Source of the DNA: a virus | Strand: one strand, 5' to 3' | Length of the DNA: 24,999 nt | IMG/VR virus record: IMGVR_UViG_3300035698_001071 | Span: 1 to 24,999 of that record | In this document: positions 19,334 through 24,999 of the stretch, piece after piece | Layout: every line of letters begins with the position of its first letter | How positions within the stretch are numbered: the first letter of the stretch is position 1 | The notes under the pieces: generated by a model | Database searches by the model: none | Told to the model about the DNA's origin: nothing | Seen by the model: only the letters and a program-made list of their open reading frames with translations | Made by a program: the position numbers and the translations under genes

Positions 19334-20290
19334 ATGTCTCAGAGTGGTTTTCCAGATTTAAGCAGCCCGGTGAGTGGTACTGCGTTAATAAATACATATC
19401 TCGAACCTTGGCGTGCGGCTGTACACTCGATGCATTCGGGTACAAGCCGACCGTCTTATGTTGTGGCAGGTATGGAATGGTTGGACACGACCTCAGACCC
19501 TTGGGTTAGAAAGTTCTGGGATGGGACAAACGACCTCATCGTTGGTTATTATAACTCAACCACTCACATACATACGGCAGCAGGTATCCCGTTACAGAAC
19601 TTAGTTGCTACAGTAGCACCTGTGGTGGGCGATGACAGTGCGGATGGGTACTCCGCAGGTTCTGTTTGGGCAGATGTAACTGCTGAAAAAGCGTATATTT
19701 GCTTGGATGCTACAGGCGGTGCCGCTGTCTGGAAACAAATCACTTTGACAGTTGCTGACATCGTAGGCAAGCAGACAATCTGCATACCTGCGGCAGCTAT
19801 GACACCTCGGAAAACTAACGGATGCTCTGCTCTGACATTTGTGAACGGCGCTACAGGTCAACCTGACATCGCTCATTTACTCTTTGACGGTGCTGCTGAT
19901 GAGTATGCCAGCTTCATGGTGTCGATGCCTAAGAGTTGGGACAAAGGTACGGTCACTGCTAAATTCTTCTGGCGTCGCGCTACCGGCACAGGTGCTGCTA
20001 ATGTGGTTTGGGGTATTCGCGCTCTAGGTGTAGGTGACAGCGATTCACCGGTTTCCAATCTGGGCACGGTTGCTACAGTTACGGACGACGCTGATGTAAC
20101 TCTTGTTGATTTAGCTGTGTCCGATGAAACGGCAGCGTGCACCGTGGCAGGTACTCTGGTTGATAACGATCTTGTGATGTTTGAGGTGTTGCGTAACGGA
20201 GCCAACGCCCTGGATACTTTGAACGCTGTTGACGCTCAGCTTGTAGCCGTCCAGTTATTTTATACAACGAATGCGCTGAACGATGCTTAG
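19334..20290 (+). CDS. putative tail fibre or tip-associated receptor-binding protein
   Basis: The protein has 318 residues. It follows the gpJ-like gene with one base between. Residues 1-75 end in a WRKFWDGT-like segment (WVRKFWDGTNDL) common in short tail fibres. Residues about 100-130 form a SVWADVTAEKAYICLDATGGAAVWK strip (shown partly: AYICLDATGGAAVWK). Residues about 145-315 resemble a beta-sandwich (jelly-roll) domain of many phage tail proteins, with HLLFDGAADEYASF, MPKSWDKGTVTAKFFW and VWGIRALGVGD. Binding a cell-surface sugar or protein is likely but unproven. The 3' end overlaps the next gene by 8 bases. Confidence 0.68.
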   Translation: MSQSGFPDLSSPVSGTALINTYLEPWRAAVHSMHSGTSRPSYVVAGMEWLDTTSDPWVRKFWDGTNDLIVGYYNSTTHIHTAAGIPLQNLVATVAPVVGDDSADGYSAGSVWADVTAEKAYICLDATGGAAVWKQITLTVADIVGKQTICIPAAAMTPRKTNGCSALTFVNGATGQPDIAHLLFDGAADEYASFMVSMPKSWDKGTVTAKFFWRRATGTGAANVVWGIRALGVGDSDSPVSNLGTVATVTDDADVTLVDLAVSDETAACTVAGTLVDNDLVMFEVLRNGANALDTLNAVDAQLVAVQLFYTTNALNDA

Positions 20291-21032
20291 TAATAACCAC
20301 CTCATAGGCTTCGGAGCCAACCAAGCTGACGGTGATATAAATGCCGTCAACTACGACGGTGTCGATGATTATTTGAACCGCGCTTCCGGTTTGACCGGAG
20401 GTGCCGACACAGGTGTAGGTATATTTTCAGTACGTTTCCGTCGAGATTCTCTTACAGCAGGTGGTCAAGATGATCTTTTACTGAACCTCGAGCTCGGGGG
20501 AAGTGATACGATTGAGATGGGTTTCTTCAATGATCAGAAATTCTACGTTTATTTGTCAAGCGGTGCCAATGTCTTGTATTTTCAAACAGCCGCCACATTT
20601 TCTGTAGACGGTCTCTATCACCACGTCCTTGTGAATTATGATACGAACCAAACCACAGGAAGTCGCGTGCAACAGATGCGAATTGATGGCTCCAGCGACT
20701 CTGTGAGTGTCACCAACAACGGTGTCGCGTTTACCAGCGACTTGGCAGCTGCTACACGTGTTCAAGTCGGTCGCAACAATAGCGGTGCAGGTCACTACGG
20801 AGGTGATCTTGTGGAACTTTACTACGCAGGCGGGCAATCACTTGACATTGACGTCTCAGGGAATCGAGATAAATTTGACGCAGGCACATTGGGTTCGGAC
20901 GGGTCACTACCTACCGGCGTAGCTCCTCTGGTGTTCCTGAGAAATAAAGCATCTACTGTTAACGTGAACTCAGGAAGCGGTGGTGATTTTACAATAAACA
21001 GTGCACCTACTGACGCAGAATATGTACCATAA
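20283..21032 (+). CDS. LamG / concanavalin A-like tail protein
   Basis: The protein has 249 residues. The core (about 25-190) has the LamG-like pattern: FDGVDDYL-type opening (YDGVDDYLNRASGLTGGAD), FSVRFRRDS, the strands FYVYLSS and LYFQTAATFSVDGLYHHVLVNYD, then VQVGRNNSGAGHYGGDLVELYY. This jelly-roll fold often binds carbohydrates, so a role as a second adhesin at the tail tip is reasonable. The start ATG at 20283 overlaps the previous gene and has a poor ribosome binding site, indicating translational coupling. No transmembrane segment or signal peptide is seen. Confidence 0.7.
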   Translation: MLSNNHLIGFGANQADGDINAVNYDGVDDYLNRASGLTGGADTGVGIFSVRFRRDSLTAGGQDDLLLNLELGGSDTIEMGFFNDQKFYVYLSSGANVLYFQTAATFSVDGLYHHVLVNYDTNQTTGSRVQQMRIDGSSDSVSVTNNGVAFTSDLAAATRVQVGRNNSGAGHYGGDLVELYYAGGQSLDIDVSGNRDKFDAGTLGSDGSLPTGVAPLVFLRNKASTVNVNSGSGGDFTINSAPTDAEYVP

Positions 21033-21046
21033 ATAGAGGAAATGAC

Positions 21047-21625
21047 ATGAGTACCAAATACGCCTTAATTGTCGATGACCAGATAGTCAAAGAGGTTTTC
21101 AAAGCCGAAGCACCTATCAGCGGTTACGTGGGTGGTAAATTGTCTTGGCGACCAATCGTCGTCGTGACTGCCAAGTATGACAAAGCTGTGAAAACTCACA
21201 CCGTCACACGCACGATTGAAGACACTCGTGTGGTTGACACATGGGTGGTTGCTGATCTAGCAGGCACTGTCGCAGAGGCTAATTTAATCAAGGCCCTCAA
21301 GGCTTACCGATGGTTGAAAGAATCGGGAGGGATCATCCATGCGGGTGTGGCAGTCCCCACAGACGAGGTTACTCTCAGTCGTCTTGACTCGATGTGGGCA
21401 AAAGCTAAATTCGATAGCAAATACATTGTCGAGGATTGGACTGTGGGTGATACGCCTGTAGATTTGTCCAATGCTCAAATCATAGGAATCGCAGAGGCTG
21501 TTCATGATCATTTAGCGGATTGCTTCAAGGCTCAAGGCACAGTCATCGCAGGCATTAAGGATGAGACATACTCGACAAAGAGCGCTGTTGAGGCAGCATT
21601 CGACACGGCGTTCGATGCCTTGTAG
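21047..21625 (+). CDS. DUF4376-containing tail-associated protein
   Basis: The protein has 192 residues. The N-terminal part (1-75) is a beta-rich segment with YALIVDDQIVKEVF. The C-terminal part (about 83-192) matches the DUF4376 pattern: ALKAYRWLKESGGI, VAVPTDEVTLSRLDSM, VEDWTVGD and an ending with AVEAAFDTAFDAL. Such proteins lie next to tail fibre genes and are thought to be structural or fibre-assembly factors. AGAGGAA before the ATG is a strong ribosome binding site. Confidence 0.75.
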   Translation: MSTKYALIVDDQIVKEVFKAEAPISGYVGGKLSWRPIVVVTAKYDKAVKTHTVTRTIEDTRVVDTWVVADLAGTVAEANLIKALKAYRWLKESGGIIHAGVAVPTDEVTLSRLDSMWAKAKFDSKYIVEDWTVGDTPVDLSNAQIIGIAEAVHDHLADCFKAQGTVIAGIKDETYSTKSAVEAAFDTAFDAL

Positions 21626-21845
21626 TGTTCCTAAAGCATTCGGGTTGCGTAGATGGTTTGAATCTCGATTCGGTGATTTGTGCGCTCAACATGACACTGA
21701 CTATGTGTGGAAGTTGGTGAGTAAAACACAAGCCGATTGGTTGTTCATACGCGGTGTATGGTGTCGTGGCTACAAAACAGCTGCTGTAGTGTCGTGGCTG
21801 GTCTTTCAAACACCTTGGGCATGGTGGTTGTGGATCAGAAACTAG
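21615..21845 (+). CDS. small membrane-type protein with CxxHDxxY motif
   Basis: From the ATG at 21615 the protein has 76 residues. An upstream in-frame ATG at 21561 would give 94 but overlaps the previous gene by 65 bases. C23, H26, D27 and Y30 form CAQHDTDY, the CxxHDxxY arrangement seen in phospholipase A2-like proteins and in many short phage proteins of unknown role. The C-terminal part is hydrophobic and tryptophan-rich (AAVVSWLVFQTPWAWWLWI), likely a membrane segment. The first basic helix is LRRWFESRFG. The ribosome binding site is weak, so translation may be coupled to the gene before. Possible lysis or envelope role is an inference. The stop overlaps that of the opposing gene. Confidence 0.5.
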   Translation: MPCSVPKAFGLRRWFESRFGDLCAQHDTDYVWKLVSKTQADWLFIRGVWCRGYKTAAVVSWLVFQTPWAWWLWIRN

Positions 21846-23935
21846 ACAACCAGCTTGGATGCTTCTTGTATATACCAAGCCCAGTTCACATTATTAAAGT
21901 CAAAATTTCTAACGTCGTTGCATATGCTAACGTTGTACCCTGCGCAGATCTGACTCTCGCGTATTTGATATGTGCTTTTGTTTTTAGTGCAAACGCGTTC
22001 ATCCCAAGAGCCACCGGTTTCAACCATGACCGAATCATATTGTTGTTGCGTTACTCCGTTGGCTTTTTTGAATGCGCCGATCGCTCCCATTGCTGGGGCT
22101 CTCTTCACCAAAGCACTGCCATTCACTGAAACATAATAGCGAGTACCACGCTTTTGCTGTGGTATCCCATTGTGAAGCAGTTCGTCACCACCGCGAGTCT
22201 TTACCCCGCACATGAAGTCGTAAGGGTTGGTGTTCATTCGTATGAACTGCTCGATGTCAACACCGTGAGTCATATGAGCTACAGCAGCTCGAATACTGGC
22301 ACAGTTGGATAAGTCCTTGTGCCATGCAGGAGGTTGTGAGTTCGCAATCGAACCGACATAATCCAATGGGTCAGGAGCCCAATAAGCACCTTTCAGTTTT
22401 AGCAACCCGTCCTTATCCTCGGCAATGTAATTATTTACATCTCTGATCCACATACGATTATAGTCAACATCCTCAAGGACGAGCCTTGTGATAGCCTCCC
22501 ACTCTTTGCATTGCACTGCTGCCAGATGTTCGTAACTCTTGTGAATTTGGTAGGTTATCCCGTCCGTGTTGATCTGGATGACCTGCAGAGTCGGTATATT
22601 CACCAAACGTTCCGCTAACATACACAGCATCAGCTGACCATTGATTGTGATCGTCATGGTGAAGAGCGGGTCGTAGAAAGGGCTATAAACGCTGTTACTT
22701 TTTCCGTAAACACCATTCGCAGCAAGTTTCAAAGCGTTTGCTTCAGGGCATTTCTTACCTTTCTGTTTCTGCCACATCTTGCGTTCTTTCGGTATTTCAG
22801 CATAAACATTCGTGAAAGCTTCACCTAAATGGGCAGGAGATAGATTGTTCTGAATTGCAATCGACGGGTATAGCGACGCCACATCAATGTCGCGTACAAG
22901 CCATTCGTCCGTTGAGACGACTCTGCGGCGTTCTAAACTGCCGTGGATTCCACCGACACCGAAGTGGTAGTTAACACCTCCCACAAGTGCTGTGAGACCT
23001 TTAAAAACACCCTTCGTCACGATTTTAGCGGTCTCGTCAACGTTGCCGATGTCTTCAGCCTTTAGAACTTGCTGCTTCAAATATTCATGCACTCGCTGAA
23101 ATTCAGGGTTTTGGAACTGCACGTAAGGGAATATGATGTCCTTGAATGCTATCCGATCTCTGGGTGTCTGACGCGGTTCTTTCTTTCCACTGCTTTTATC
23201 ATAACATGCGTCAAAACCGAGTCGGTCGATCACGGTTTGCTCACCGATTTTCGTATCGTTCCAGTTCATCACCTCGTCACCAAATTTCTCAACCAGTGAC
23301 TTGCGGAATTCCATTGCTCCGAGGCTATGGATCGCAAACCTCTTGGTTTCTTGAACATCATGATCACCGTAAGGTATCAGTTGTTGATCGACTTGTTGTT
23401 TAGACAGCACTGTTCCATTCTCTACAGGCATGTCTTCAACTGAATCCGTCCTCATGTTAATCTGAAGATATTTAAGGCTGGTGGCTTTAGCCATGTTGTC
23501 GAAGTGGTGAATTTTGTATAAGTCGATTTGTGGAATCTTTCGATCACTAGCCCAAATCATATGAGCGAATCGATTTTTAGTGTTGAATATCTCCTGAGAT
23601 CTTGCGTATATCTGCTCAACTGTTGCTGTTGGGTTGTTCATCAGGAAATGCAGGATAACATAATCGAATCCGAGATTGTTGAATCCTATCATCGGTATCT
23701 TGTTAAATTTCAAATACAATAAGAACTCGAACAATTGTGCTCGATCATCACGGAAATGAGAGATTTCCCACACCGCTCCTTTGTCGTTAAACAAAGGCTC
23801 CATTGCTAAAGTGAAGCAGTTTGGGAAAGTTTCTTCATCGTATACTATTGCGTTGTCGAGGTTCATAATTTTACAGGGTTTTCTATATACCCTTCCCTGG
23901 CCATAATTCTGTAATAATCGTTCAGGCAAAGCCAT
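21842..23935 (-). CDS. family B DNA polymerase with 3'-5' exonuclease
   Basis: The protein has 697 residues from the ATG at 23935 and replicates the phage genome. Exonuclease motifs are complete: Exo I D33-E35 (YDEETFPN), Exo II N86-D91 (NNLGFD), Exo III Y189-D193 (YGDHD). Polymerase motif A is DVASLYPS (351-358) and motif B is KLAANGVYG (403-411). Motif C reads NTDG (456-459) where DTD is usual, keeping the second Asp. Only about 45 residues separate motifs A and B, a compact fingers region. The alternative start at residue 24 (ATG at 23866) overlaps a small ORF stop as ATGA and lies only 9 residues before Exo I, so it is also plausible. Confidence 0.9.
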   Translation of the reverse strand: MALPERLLQNYGQGRVYRKPCKIMNLDNAIVYDEETFPNCFTLAMEPLFNDKGAVWEISHFRDDRAQLFEFLLYLKFNKIPMIGFNNLGFDYVILHFLMNNPTATVEQIYARSQEIFNTKNRFAHMIWASDRKIPQIDLYKIHHFDNMAKATSLKYLQINMRTDSVEDMPVENGTVLSKQQVDQQLIPYGDHDVQETKRFAIHSLGAMEFRKSLVEKFGDEVMNWNDTKIGEQTVIDRLGFDACYDKSSGKKEPRQTPRDRIAFKDIIFPYVQFQNPEFQRVHEYLKQQVLKAEDIGNVDETAKIVTKGVFKGLTALVGGVNYHFGVGGIHGSLERRRVVSTDEWLVRDIDVASLYPSIAIQNNLSPAHLGEAFTNVYAEIPKERKMWQKQKGKKCPEANALKLAANGVYGKSNSVYSPFYDPLFTMTITINGQLMLCMLAERLVNIPTLQVIQINTDGITYQIHKSYEHLAAVQCKEWEAITRLVLEDVDYNRMWIRDVNNYIAEDKDGLLKLKGAYWAPDPLDYVGSIANSQPPAWHKDLSNCASIRAAVAHMTHGVDIEQFIRMNTNPYDFMCGVKTRGGDELLHNGIPQQKRGTRYYVSVNGSALVKRAPAMGAIGAFKKANGVTQQQYDSVMVETGGSWDERVCTKNKSTYQIRESQICAGYNVSICNDVRNFDFNNVNWAWYIQEASKLVV

Positions 23936-24048
23936 GCAGTCGCGTTGTGCGAGGGAAATTCCACAACAAGTTGAGTCGTCAGGGAAAGAATTAAACCCGT
24001 CCCTGTGCTCACTAACGACTCAACTAAAGAACCGCGCTTACTTTGCAT
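23863..24048 (-). CDS. small hydrophobic protein overlapping the polymerase start
   Basis: The ORF gives 61 residues from the ATG at 24048, or 69 from 24072. The ATG at 24048 overlaps the kinase gene end by 11 bases, and the stop overlaps the alternative polymerase ATG as ATGA, both typical of phage operons. The first half (QSKRGSLVESLVSTGTGLIL then SLTTQLVV) resembles a family of small phage membrane proteins (DUF7220-like) that normally continue with two further segments. The second half here diverges (YRIMAREGYIENPVKL), so this may be a truncated relative or a chance overlap with the polymerase reading frame. Confidence 0.45.
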   Translation of the reverse strand: MQSKRGSLVESLVSTGTGLILSLTTQLVVEFPSHNATAWLCLNDYYRIMAREGYIENPVKL

Positions 24049-24604
24049 GGACGAACTCTTTGATGATTTCACCGACTTTTATGTGAAGTTCATCAAGAGT
24101 TCCGTTGTTCTCAAGTTCGTAATTCTCACAGTCAAGACCTGTGATGTACGAACGTTTATCTTTCTTGAATGTTGCACCTTTGCGCTCGATGTGGACGATC
24201 ACAACATTGTCTGTACCGAAAGCTTCGATAAGCTCTTCAGCTTCTTCGGAAAAACCGCAGTCTGATATAACAACGACATTGTTATCAAAGCGAGCCTGTA
24301 TCGTTTTTACAGCAAGTTGTGCGAAGAAATAACCACCGAATTTCGGCTTCGCTACTTTTTCGGACATCCAAATATATGCTTCACGCGGTGTCATGCCTGC
24401 GAAGTCTGGGTTCGGGTCATCCTTAACATCTGTGAAATGCTCCTGAATGACATCTGACATGCCAAACAAACTGTGTACAGCGTCTTTGAGAGGCCCTGCC
24501 AAACGATAGTGAGCACCTGTGCCGCCGAGTGTGTTTAGAGCGGATTTGGTTGCTTCGTCTTTACCGCTGCGAGGAGGGCCGTTGAATAAAATAACTTTAG
24601 GCAT
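24038..24604 (-). CDS. deoxynucleoside monophosphate kinase-like protein
   Basis: The protein has 188 residues. A P-loop at 9-17 (GPPRSGKDE) binds nucleotide. A LAGPLKDAVHSLFGM segment at about 35-49 and a PREAYIWMSEKVAKPKFGG segment (shown partly: MTPREAYIWMSEKV) fit the phage dNMP kinase family (T4 gene 1 / T5 type). VVISDCGFSEEAE is the second nucleotide-side motif. It would phosphorylate dNMPs and so feed the adjacent polymerase. AAGGAC seven bases before the ATG is a good ribosome binding site. Substrate range cannot be read from sequence. Confidence 0.82.
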   Translation of the reverse strand: MPKVILFNGPPRSGKDEATKSALNTLGGTGAHYRLAGPLKDAVHSLFGMSDVIQEHFTDVKDDPNPDFAGMTPREAYIWMSEKVAKPKFGGYFFAQLAVKTIQARFDNNVVVISDCGFSEEAEELIEAFGTDNVVIVHIERKGATFKKDKRSYITGLDCENYELENNGTLDELHIKVGEIIKEFVHAK

Positions 24605-24704: not shown

Positions 24705-24999
24705 TTATCGCGGGACGGGATAGCCCGGCAATGCTCCTTGTGGGTTAGACGGGGATTGCGGAGCAGTCGCGACAGGTGCCGCAGGTTGGGCAGCTGGTTG
24801 TTGCACCCCCATTGTGTTGTTCACATAATCGTGAGCAGGTTGAGGCAATACCTGCGGTTGCATAGCAGGTTGCTGCATGGCTGGTTGCATAGCAGGTTGC
24901 TGCATGGCTGGTTGCATAGCAGGTTGCTGCATGGCTGGTTGCATAGCAGGTTGCTGCATGGCTGGTTGCATAGCAGGTTGCTGCATGGCTGGTTGCATA
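24705..24999 (-). CDS. C-terminal part of a Gln/Met/Pro/Ala repeat protein (partial)
   Basis: The frame is open from the right window edge to TAA at 24705, so the N-terminus lies outside. The visible 97 residues begin with tandem MQPAMQQPA units and pass into a Pro/Ala/Gln-rich tail ending ALPGYPVPR. No folded domain is visible. The low-complexity tail resembles disordered C-termini of phage replication proteins (for example some ssDNA-binding proteins), and the neighbourhood fits that, but the acidic tip typical of ssDNA-binding proteins is missing. The identity cannot be decided from this part. Confidence 0.6.
   Translation of the reverse strand, partial: MQPAMQQPAMQPAMQQPAMQPAMQQPAMQPAMQQPAMQPAMQQPAMQPQVLPQPAHDYVNNTMGVQQPAAQPAAPVATAPQSPSNPQGALPGYPVPR
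24861..24999. repeat. perfect 27-bp tandem repeat inside a coding region
   Basis: The unit starting at 24861 recurs at 24888, 24915, 24942 and 24969, with the first bases of a sixth copy at 24996-24999. The five full copies are identical. The unit encodes nine residues (MQPAMQQPA on the - strand), so copy number can change without a frameshift. Complete identity implies recent expansion or ongoing homogenisation. The array continues past the window edge. Confidence 0.95.

Follow-up and report, generated by a model that had tools for sequence, protein, structure and literature searches.

P0001, a 76-residue protein encoded at positions 21615–21845 (+ strand) of a 24,999-base virus record (the window), is very probably a member of the phospholipase A2 (PLA2) superfamily. 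It is predicted to be an unusually small form of an enzyme type already known, belonging to a phage family without an assigned function, and the variant appears to be new. The reading that we favor, at somewhat less than even probability, is that P0001 is a minimal DUF1353/group XIV PLA2-type protein, made late with the tail genes, that attacks host phospholipids and most likely helps lysis. The support for superfamily membership is strong at the level of the family and good for P0001 itself. A preliminary description had called the product PLA2-like on the strength of its motif; that reading is supported by homology beyond the motif, namely profiles of relatives not chosen by pattern, PDB sequence matches, the modeled structure of family member L028 and the connection of DUF1353 to the proven enzyme TtaP.

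The window carries the late operon of a tailed phage. PHROGs profiles identify scaffold, major head, head morphogenesis, major tail and tail assembly chaperone proteins, together with an NlpC/P60 protein of the minor-tail type and a large fiber protein with relatives in 45 phage records, the best from Rhizobium, Bradyrhizobium and Rhodovulum phages. A LamG/concanavalin-like protein (20283–21032, + strand; PF13385, E 2.2e-4, under the curated score cut-off) belongs to the same operon. The + strand run continues through further genes to a DUF4376 tail-fiber-type gene (21047–21625, + strand; PF14301, E 3.5e-11; phrog_10508, tail fiber protein, E 2.7e-15) and then P0001. As described earlier, P0001 closes the operon: it is the last + strand gene, and its stop abuts that of a convergent family-B DNA polymerase gene (21842–23935, − strand; PF00136, E 2e-6) that marks the operon end. 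The accompanying statement that the window shows no standard holin or endolysin gene agrees with the absence of any PHROGs match of the ‘lysis’ kind at E 0.001 among the 15 window genes scanned (5 + 10), in a record of 25 kb whose completeness is unstated, so that the rest of the phage may hold such genes.

The region beyond P0001 has several features of its own. The DNA polymerase is divergent (697 residues) and its Pfam match comes in two pieces. A deoxynucleotide monophosphate kinase-like gene (24038–24604, − strand; E 3.2e-7) is likewise opposed to the late operon. At the record edge (24745–24999), an (MQPAMQQPA)n protein is encoded by direct repeats on the − strand; the record breaks off within these repeats, a possible reason for the end of the assembly there.

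The P0001 gene is real, and its start is probably the ATG at 21615, giving 76 residues plus a stop codon. The frame is open over 109 codons. The ATG overlaps the preceding gene, whose stop lies at 21623–21625, by 11 bases, and is consistent with the usual N-terminus of the phrog_6098-type family. An upstream ATG at 21561 would add a less likely 18-residue extension (21561–21614, + strand); the resulting 94-residue product matches phrog_6098 no better (E 0.0027 versus 0.0021). By eye, a good ribosome-binding site is missing at the normal distance from either ATG, and the start at 21615 is therefore graded as probable only.

The translation contains the motif C23-A-Q-H26-D27-T-D-Y30, confirming the CxxHDxxY signature reported for this 76-residue product. 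Its HDTDY segment (codons 26–30, 21690–21704, + strand) provides the predicted catalytic His26, the predicted calcium-binding Asp27 and Tyr30, assigned from family conservation. A second catalytic aspartate, missed in the preliminary description, is predicted in the ADWLF segment (codons 40–44, 21732–21746, + strand), where family conservation and the spacing in TtaP point to Asp41, 15 residues past His26, as the dyad partner. Among the 444 window frames of at least 30 codons, CxxHDxxY occurs in the P0001 frame alone. It arises in one of 5,000 full shuffles of P0001, and the longer pattern C..HD..Y-9-AD..F in none of 5,000. Judged from the sequence, the motif is no coincidence.

The most independent evidence for homology is PHROGs’ own profile of phrog_6098, a phage family of unknown function, which aligns residues 21–73 of P0001 with positions 19–71 of 78 (E 0.0021). 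The same profile matches 30 of the 31 sequences of our alignment A1 at E 0.01, P0001 among them. A scan of IMG/VR with C..HD..Y-9-AD..F yielded 47 loci, comprising five with an internal stop, one unrelated-looking long frame and 41 small frames, two of them truncated. The small frames share a layout of an N-terminal Cys loop, a helix, CxxHDxxY, a short loop, ADxxF and an aromatic helix that often ends in VRxFGW or similar. Seventeen of the 47 loci were left out of A1: those with internal stops (L010, L012, L015, L024 and L044), the long frame (L048), the truncated frames (L019 and L043) and duplicates or near relatives (L011, L018, L021, L022, L033, L035, L040, L042 and L046). Because these loci were chosen by pattern, conservation of the motif columns is built into A1 and, to a large extent, into alignment A8. 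A score of P0001 against A1 from hhalign was discarded as circular, P0001 itself being in A1.

Since the scan selected for the motif, the test was repeated with relatives that were not chosen by pattern. This set comprises six named phages found by tblastn and four loci found with peptide seeds (L072, L075, L076 and L082); it is partly dependent, in that loci chosen by pattern had served as the queries from which it was derived, part of C..HD is present in the peptide seeds, and L072 is nearly a duplicate of L076. A profile of the 10 relatives ranks the P0001 frame first of the 444 window frames (E 3.8e-8; next frame 2.7). No full shuffle out of 4,945 scored attains its score for P0001, nor does any of 5,000 shuffles in which eight motif residues were fixed in place, the best of the latter falling 1.7 bits short (28.0 versus 29.7 bits). 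The strictest profile, built from the six named phages found by tblastn alone, also places P0001 first (E 2.5e-5; next 2.3). None of 4,940 scored full shuffles equals the P0001 score with this profile, and six of 5,000 motif-keeping shuffles do; the evidence beyond the motif residues is therefore real but modest there.

The putative active-site residues are conserved throughout. His, Asp, Tyr and the second Asp are present in all 31 sequences of A8, most of which were picked by motif, and the positions of H26, D27, Y30 and D41 are kept in 10 of the 10 sequences not picked by pattern. Two cysteines, C3 and C23, are conserved in the family together with Y30. In HMMER alignments, H26, D27 and D41 correspond to H64, D65 and D85 of the Streptomyces violaceoruber enzyme (1faz), and C3 and C23 fall at C45 and C61. 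The roles assigned to the three 1faz residues are those of PMC11525133 and of PLA2s in general.

The connection to PLA2 is also found in searches with the family as a whole. The top four PDB sequences matched by the A8 profile are all PLA2s (1faz, E 2.9e-5; 7ygk; 4aup; 8k1w), with E values from 2.9e-5 to 4.6e-4 and the next match at 0.24, a result that holds for the family and not for P0001 alone. An earlier PDB profile search of the family likewise returned PLA2s in the first four places. In Pfam, at E values up to 1, DUF1353 (PF07087) matches 21 of 31 members (best 3.6e-11), and the PLA2 families Phospholip_A2_3, Phospholip_A2_4 and PLA2G12 match five, five (best 0.007) and four, respectively; P0001 alone has no Pfam match at E 1. 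TtaP, a DUF1353 protein, is a proven PLA2 that needs D85 with H70 and D71, the D85A mutant being inactive; its authors note that it resembles DUF1353 proteins of prophages, and they expect PLA2 activity in further members of DUF1353 (PMC11525133).

Structural modeling gives a less clear picture. The AlphaFold2 model of P0001 (pLDDT 89.4) is composed of helices spanning residues 12–32, 37–50, 54–64 and 67–75, an order that fits the three-helix PLA2 core. C23, H26, D27 and Y30 lie on the first helix and A40, D41 and F44 on the second, and the four-residue turn between them should put H26 opposite D41. The best viral structure matches to the model are weak (a ‘Cje0229’ protein, E 0.76; a DUF1353 protein, E 1.9), and a parvovirus minor capsid protein aligns over 29 columns with an rmsd of 1.3 (E 5.1). 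Foldseek matched the model to four PDB chains, none of them a PLA2; realignment covered those four only, and the result is not counted as evidence of absence. For the model of L028 (pLDDT 78.7), realignment to 116 chains gave Z scores of 6.8 for 8k1w, 6.3 for 4aup and 5.8 for 7ygk, all below the caution level of the tool for helical proteins, with the PLA2 matches spanning 82–88 residues at 25–32% identity. An unrelated chain, 1sqf, follows at Z 5.5, tied with the second and third PLA2s, and the structural evidence taken alone is for that reason moderate. Foldseek’s own ranking has no PLA2 among the 47 matches listed for L028.

The closest kin of P0001 are L013/L061 (38% identity over 74 residues) and L062 (37% over 73). 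L062 was found through WFES and WW seeds and not through the HD motif, and still carries HD..Y and AD..F. P0001, L013 and L062 form a branch with R.WFES.F ahead of the motif and WW.W at the C-terminus. The match seen in L062 is also present on a 30,035-base contig of a Micavibrio MAG. The phage record collection contains no close relative of P0001 or L062, and a single-protein seed search of viral contigs confirmed no relative. Two tblastn matches to P0001 among 50,697 phage records were rejected, one in a frame that differs from the annotated microvirus gene and the other inside a long frame that is DinB-like by eye. The preliminary description had named absence from related phages as a ground for rejecting its reading; relatives are in fact present in many. 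More distant members are encoded by Mannheimia, Aeromonas, Pseudomonas and Aurantimonas phages, some of them as longer DUF1353-like proteins, as in nickie (137 residues) and QdP_Psa3 (187 residues). No paper on the short phage PLA2-like family was found in the literature searched, which largely omits subscription papers.

Bacterial genomes gave a different kind of match. At E 1e-5, a limit that misses the copy of the Micavibrio MAG itself (1.4e-4), phrog_6098 matches two of 289 genomes of the class of that MAG; both copies look chromosomal, and the class-wide scan provided no host clue. Caulobacter vibrioides, included as a control genome, matches at E limits of 0.01 and 0.001 and not at 1e-5. 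PLA2-like frames in apparently chromosomal genes of two genomes are a short one with CCNEHDDDY (L092, 4128–4442) and a 227-residue DUF1353-like one with LHDFLY (L093, 5246–5929), which follows a predicted five-span membrane protein. Elsewhere, L081 and L082 share a C-terminal extension of ~80 residues past the PLA2-like part that is alike by eye, and the 1152AP2 copy, 59 residues long and beside an integrase, looks like a remnant.

Catalytic activity of P0001 is judged slightly more probable than inactivity. The calcium-loop Asp, two positions before the N-terminal Cys, is replaced by Met (the start Met) in P0001 and by Arg in L013 and L062, and is present in nine of the 31 A8 sequences. The residue two before the aligned Cys of 1faz is Asp43, which we take to be a calcium ligand. 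In the classical secreted animal PLA2s, calcium is held by backbone carbonyls together with the HD aspartate; activity of P0001 is still possible for this reason, although its likelihood is lowered.

The C-terminus (codons 54–76, 21774–21842, + strand) had been described as tryptophan-rich and hydrophobic, and the product as of membrane type. P0001 as a whole has nine tryptophans (11.8% of its residues versus 1.3% in 11 large late genes). Its membrane character is weak, the best 19-residue hydropathy mean being 1.15 and the usual threshold for a membrane span 1.6. The segment forms the last two helices of the model (54–64 and 67–75), and HMMER alignments place the Trp-rich end at the final PLA2 core helix. 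The Trp-rich segment is probably this last helix of the fold plus a lipid-facing surface rather than a clear membrane span, and may serve interfacial binding.

Family genes are often found near tail-fiber or lysis genes, and the neighborhoods point both ways. In the window and in L013, the gene comes after fiber-type genes; in PHL101, 3927AP2, AmM-1 and nickie it directly follows a tail-fiber gene, and its flanking genes in ZRG1 are baseplate V and PAAR. Francisella phage KIRK has DUF1353, DUF4376 and tail-fiber genes in a row, much as in the window (PMC7924643). In L008 and L077 the gene is directly upstream of a holin-family gene, and in L016 and L034 directly upstream of an endolysin gene. 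An endolysin (phrog_465) lies 1.4 kb upstream in L062, where two small downstream genes look holin- and spanin-like by eye only, with no PHROG match for either. The 187-residue DUF1353-like relative in the Pseudomonas phage QdP_Psa3 overlaps an endolysin gene. The gene follows genes of unknown function in Aeromonas phage PhAER-1, and in its relative PCAh2 tail genes are found just beyond it on the opposite strand; in D6 a DUF1353-like gene lies amid unknown genes, and the Epa5 record carries no annotation. The DUF1353-like gene of Pseudomonas phage nickie (L086) is part of a tail-gene run with three annotated lipases.

These contexts were tallied for 32 loci, which remained of 39 after omission of L071 (no focal gene) and six near-duplicates or near relatives. 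The 32 loci have 87 upstream and 87 downstream neighbors, called with a simple script. We scanned 74 and 71 of these, plus one L062 gene added upstream; the 13 and 16 left out by hand were mostly on the opposite strand or very small, and the choice was not fully consistent. Among the 25 commonest of 68 families, the 71 downstream proteins include DnaB-like helicase, tail sheath and head closure (three each) and endolysin and holin (two each), numbers that are plain counts and not enrichment statistics. Minor tail, virion structural and tail fiber families are among the 25 commonest of 100 for the 75 upstream proteins.

In the lysis reading, P0001 would accumulate in the host cytoplasm, as its gene neighborhoods and the lack of an evident signal peptide suggest. 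By analogy with the family, Asp41 on the neighboring antiparallel helix would hold His26, and His26 would activate a water molecule for cleavage of host phospholipids at the sn-2 ester. A calcium ion would be bound by Asp27 and backbone carbonyls of the N-terminal loop, and the Trp-rich C-terminus would rest at the membrane surface. At the onset of lysis, P0001 would weaken first the inner and then the outer membrane, acting beside or partly instead of the usual membrane-disrupting lysis proteins. Given activity, we consider a lysis role and its alternatives about evenly balanced. We favor lysis over entry because P0001 has no evident signal peptide, because lysis genes are close to the gene, or to a longer relative, in six loci, and because the proven relative TtaP shares an islet with a prophage-type muramidase. 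Against the lysis reading, the neighbor in the window is a tail gene rather than a lysis gene, and deletion of ttaP caused no visible change in the envelope of its host (PMC11525133).

The first alternative retains the same fold and chemistry and would place P0001 in the virion, at the tail tip or fiber, where it would cut or loosen host phospholipids for passage of the tail tip or DNA, much as the parvovirus VP1 PLA2 is pictured. We regard this as possible though unlikely. The position after a tail-fiber-type gene in the window speaks for it, and we give it about half the weight of lysis; the same arrangement in PHL101, 3927AP2, AmM-1 and nickie, and the baseplate setting in ZRG1, point in this direction. 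The five parvovirus-type Phospholip_A2_4 matches and the short structural match to the parvovirus capsid protein noted above also fit, and the conserved C3/C23 pair would suit an oxidizing place outside the cytoplasm. The six loci near lysis genes argue otherwise, and lysis and fiber genes often stand side by side in phages.

Somewhat less probable is a PLA2 fold without catalysis, serving as a structural part or fiber-assembly helper. The absence of the calcium-loop Asp from P0001, L013 and L062 would fit this, as would the tail-fiber position of the gene and the match of phrog_1158 (‘tail assembly chaperone’) to 25 of the 31 members, a label that may itself stem from gene position. A dead enzyme would not need the His, Asp and second Asp that are kept in all 10 non-pattern sequences, and TtaP of the same superfamily is active (PMC11525133).

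It is improbable that P0001 modifies the host by altering membrane lipids outside lysis and the virion, be it to keep out competing phages, to prevent DNA entry or for a similar purpose. Its small size and lack of an evident signal peptide are compatible with such a role, as are the PhAER-1 context and the three DnaB-like helicase neighbors, by size presumably those of L025, L030 and L078; set against these are the mostly late location, seen in the window and wherever the context of a named phage could be read, and the tail genes just beyond the PCAh2 copy. An unrelated protein, such as a small metal-binding one, that has CxxHDxxY by chance, which the missing Pfam family for P0001 alone and the six matching shuffles of the strictest profile might suggest, is largely refuted by the profiles, the colinear relatives, the PDB sequence and structure matches and the single short motif in 5,000 shuffles, and is very improbable.

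The family bears on the way in which phages of Gram-negative hosts that lack recognizable spanins get through the outer membrane, and on the question whether tailed phages employ lipid-cutting enzymes for entry or exit. P0001 may help its phage breach the bacterial envelope, and very small proteins with a complete PLA2 dyad, encoded at the ends of tail operons or near holin or endolysin genes, become candidates for this function. A biochemical guess is now attached to phrog_6098, which has no assigned function. With 76 residues, P0001 would, if it is active, be a much shorter PLA2 than those compared here, which have 113–125. A wider and more speculative proposal, which we consider unlikely, is that phages widely carry a minimal PLA2 of 75–100 residues as an overlooked lysis module. 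Such a protein would lie dormant in the cytoplasm until calcium and oxidation of the Cys pair switch it on, after holin or endolysin has opened the envelope; it would then hydrolyze the membranes from within and help or replace spanins, and the PLA2–muramidase pair of the typhoid islet would be a domesticated copy.

Several known systems resemble P0001 in part. The parvovirus VP1 PLA2 domain (Pfam Phospholip_A2_4) is a viral PLA2 with HD..Y. It is part of an animal-virus capsid protein, and its sequence and structure links to the P0001 family are weak. Parvovirus PLA2 is thought to act in entry, although the classical model is disputed in PMC11311400. Holders of the Tox-PLA2 domain include a Campylobacter phage (PMC3482391). 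The lytic cassette of Wolbachia phage WO, with its patatin-like PLA2, offers a similar case of a phage PLA2-type protein proposed as a lysis factor beside a tail module; that enzyme is a patatin and thus of another family than P0001, and its lysis role is a proposed one (PMC9203015).

The best PDB sequence matches are the PLA2s of S. violaceoruber (1faz/1lwb) and Tuber borchii (TbSP1; 4aup), placed in group XIV in PMC11525133. These share the C...C..HD..Y and Asp-x-x-Phe core with the P0001 family and are among the best structure matches of L028. They are secreted proteins of about 120 residues, whereas P0001 has 76; H64 and D85 of 1faz are 21 residues apart rather than the 15 of P0001, and the aligned Asp43 is absent in P0001. 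TtaP of the typhoid toxin islet, as described in PMC11525133, belongs to the same superfamily and has the same 15-residue spacing (H70/D71...D85 versus H26/D27...D41). Like P0001, it has no overt signal peptide; it differs in having none of the disulfide cysteines of the Streptomyces enzyme. Its islet partner TtsA resembles prophage muramidases (PMC11525133), an arrangement that recalls the PLA2–endolysin neighbors in the phages studied here. TtaP is a proven enzyme of 125 residues (PMC11525133), and P0001 a predicted one of 76. The closest likeness in size, N-terminal Cys, CxxHDxxY, ADxx[FL] and aromatic C-terminus is to the phrog_6098 proteins of PHL101, AmM-1 and ZRG1, which also share a tail-gene neighborhood with P0001; within that family P0001 is a remote member (E 0.0021), on a branch of its own with L013 and L062.
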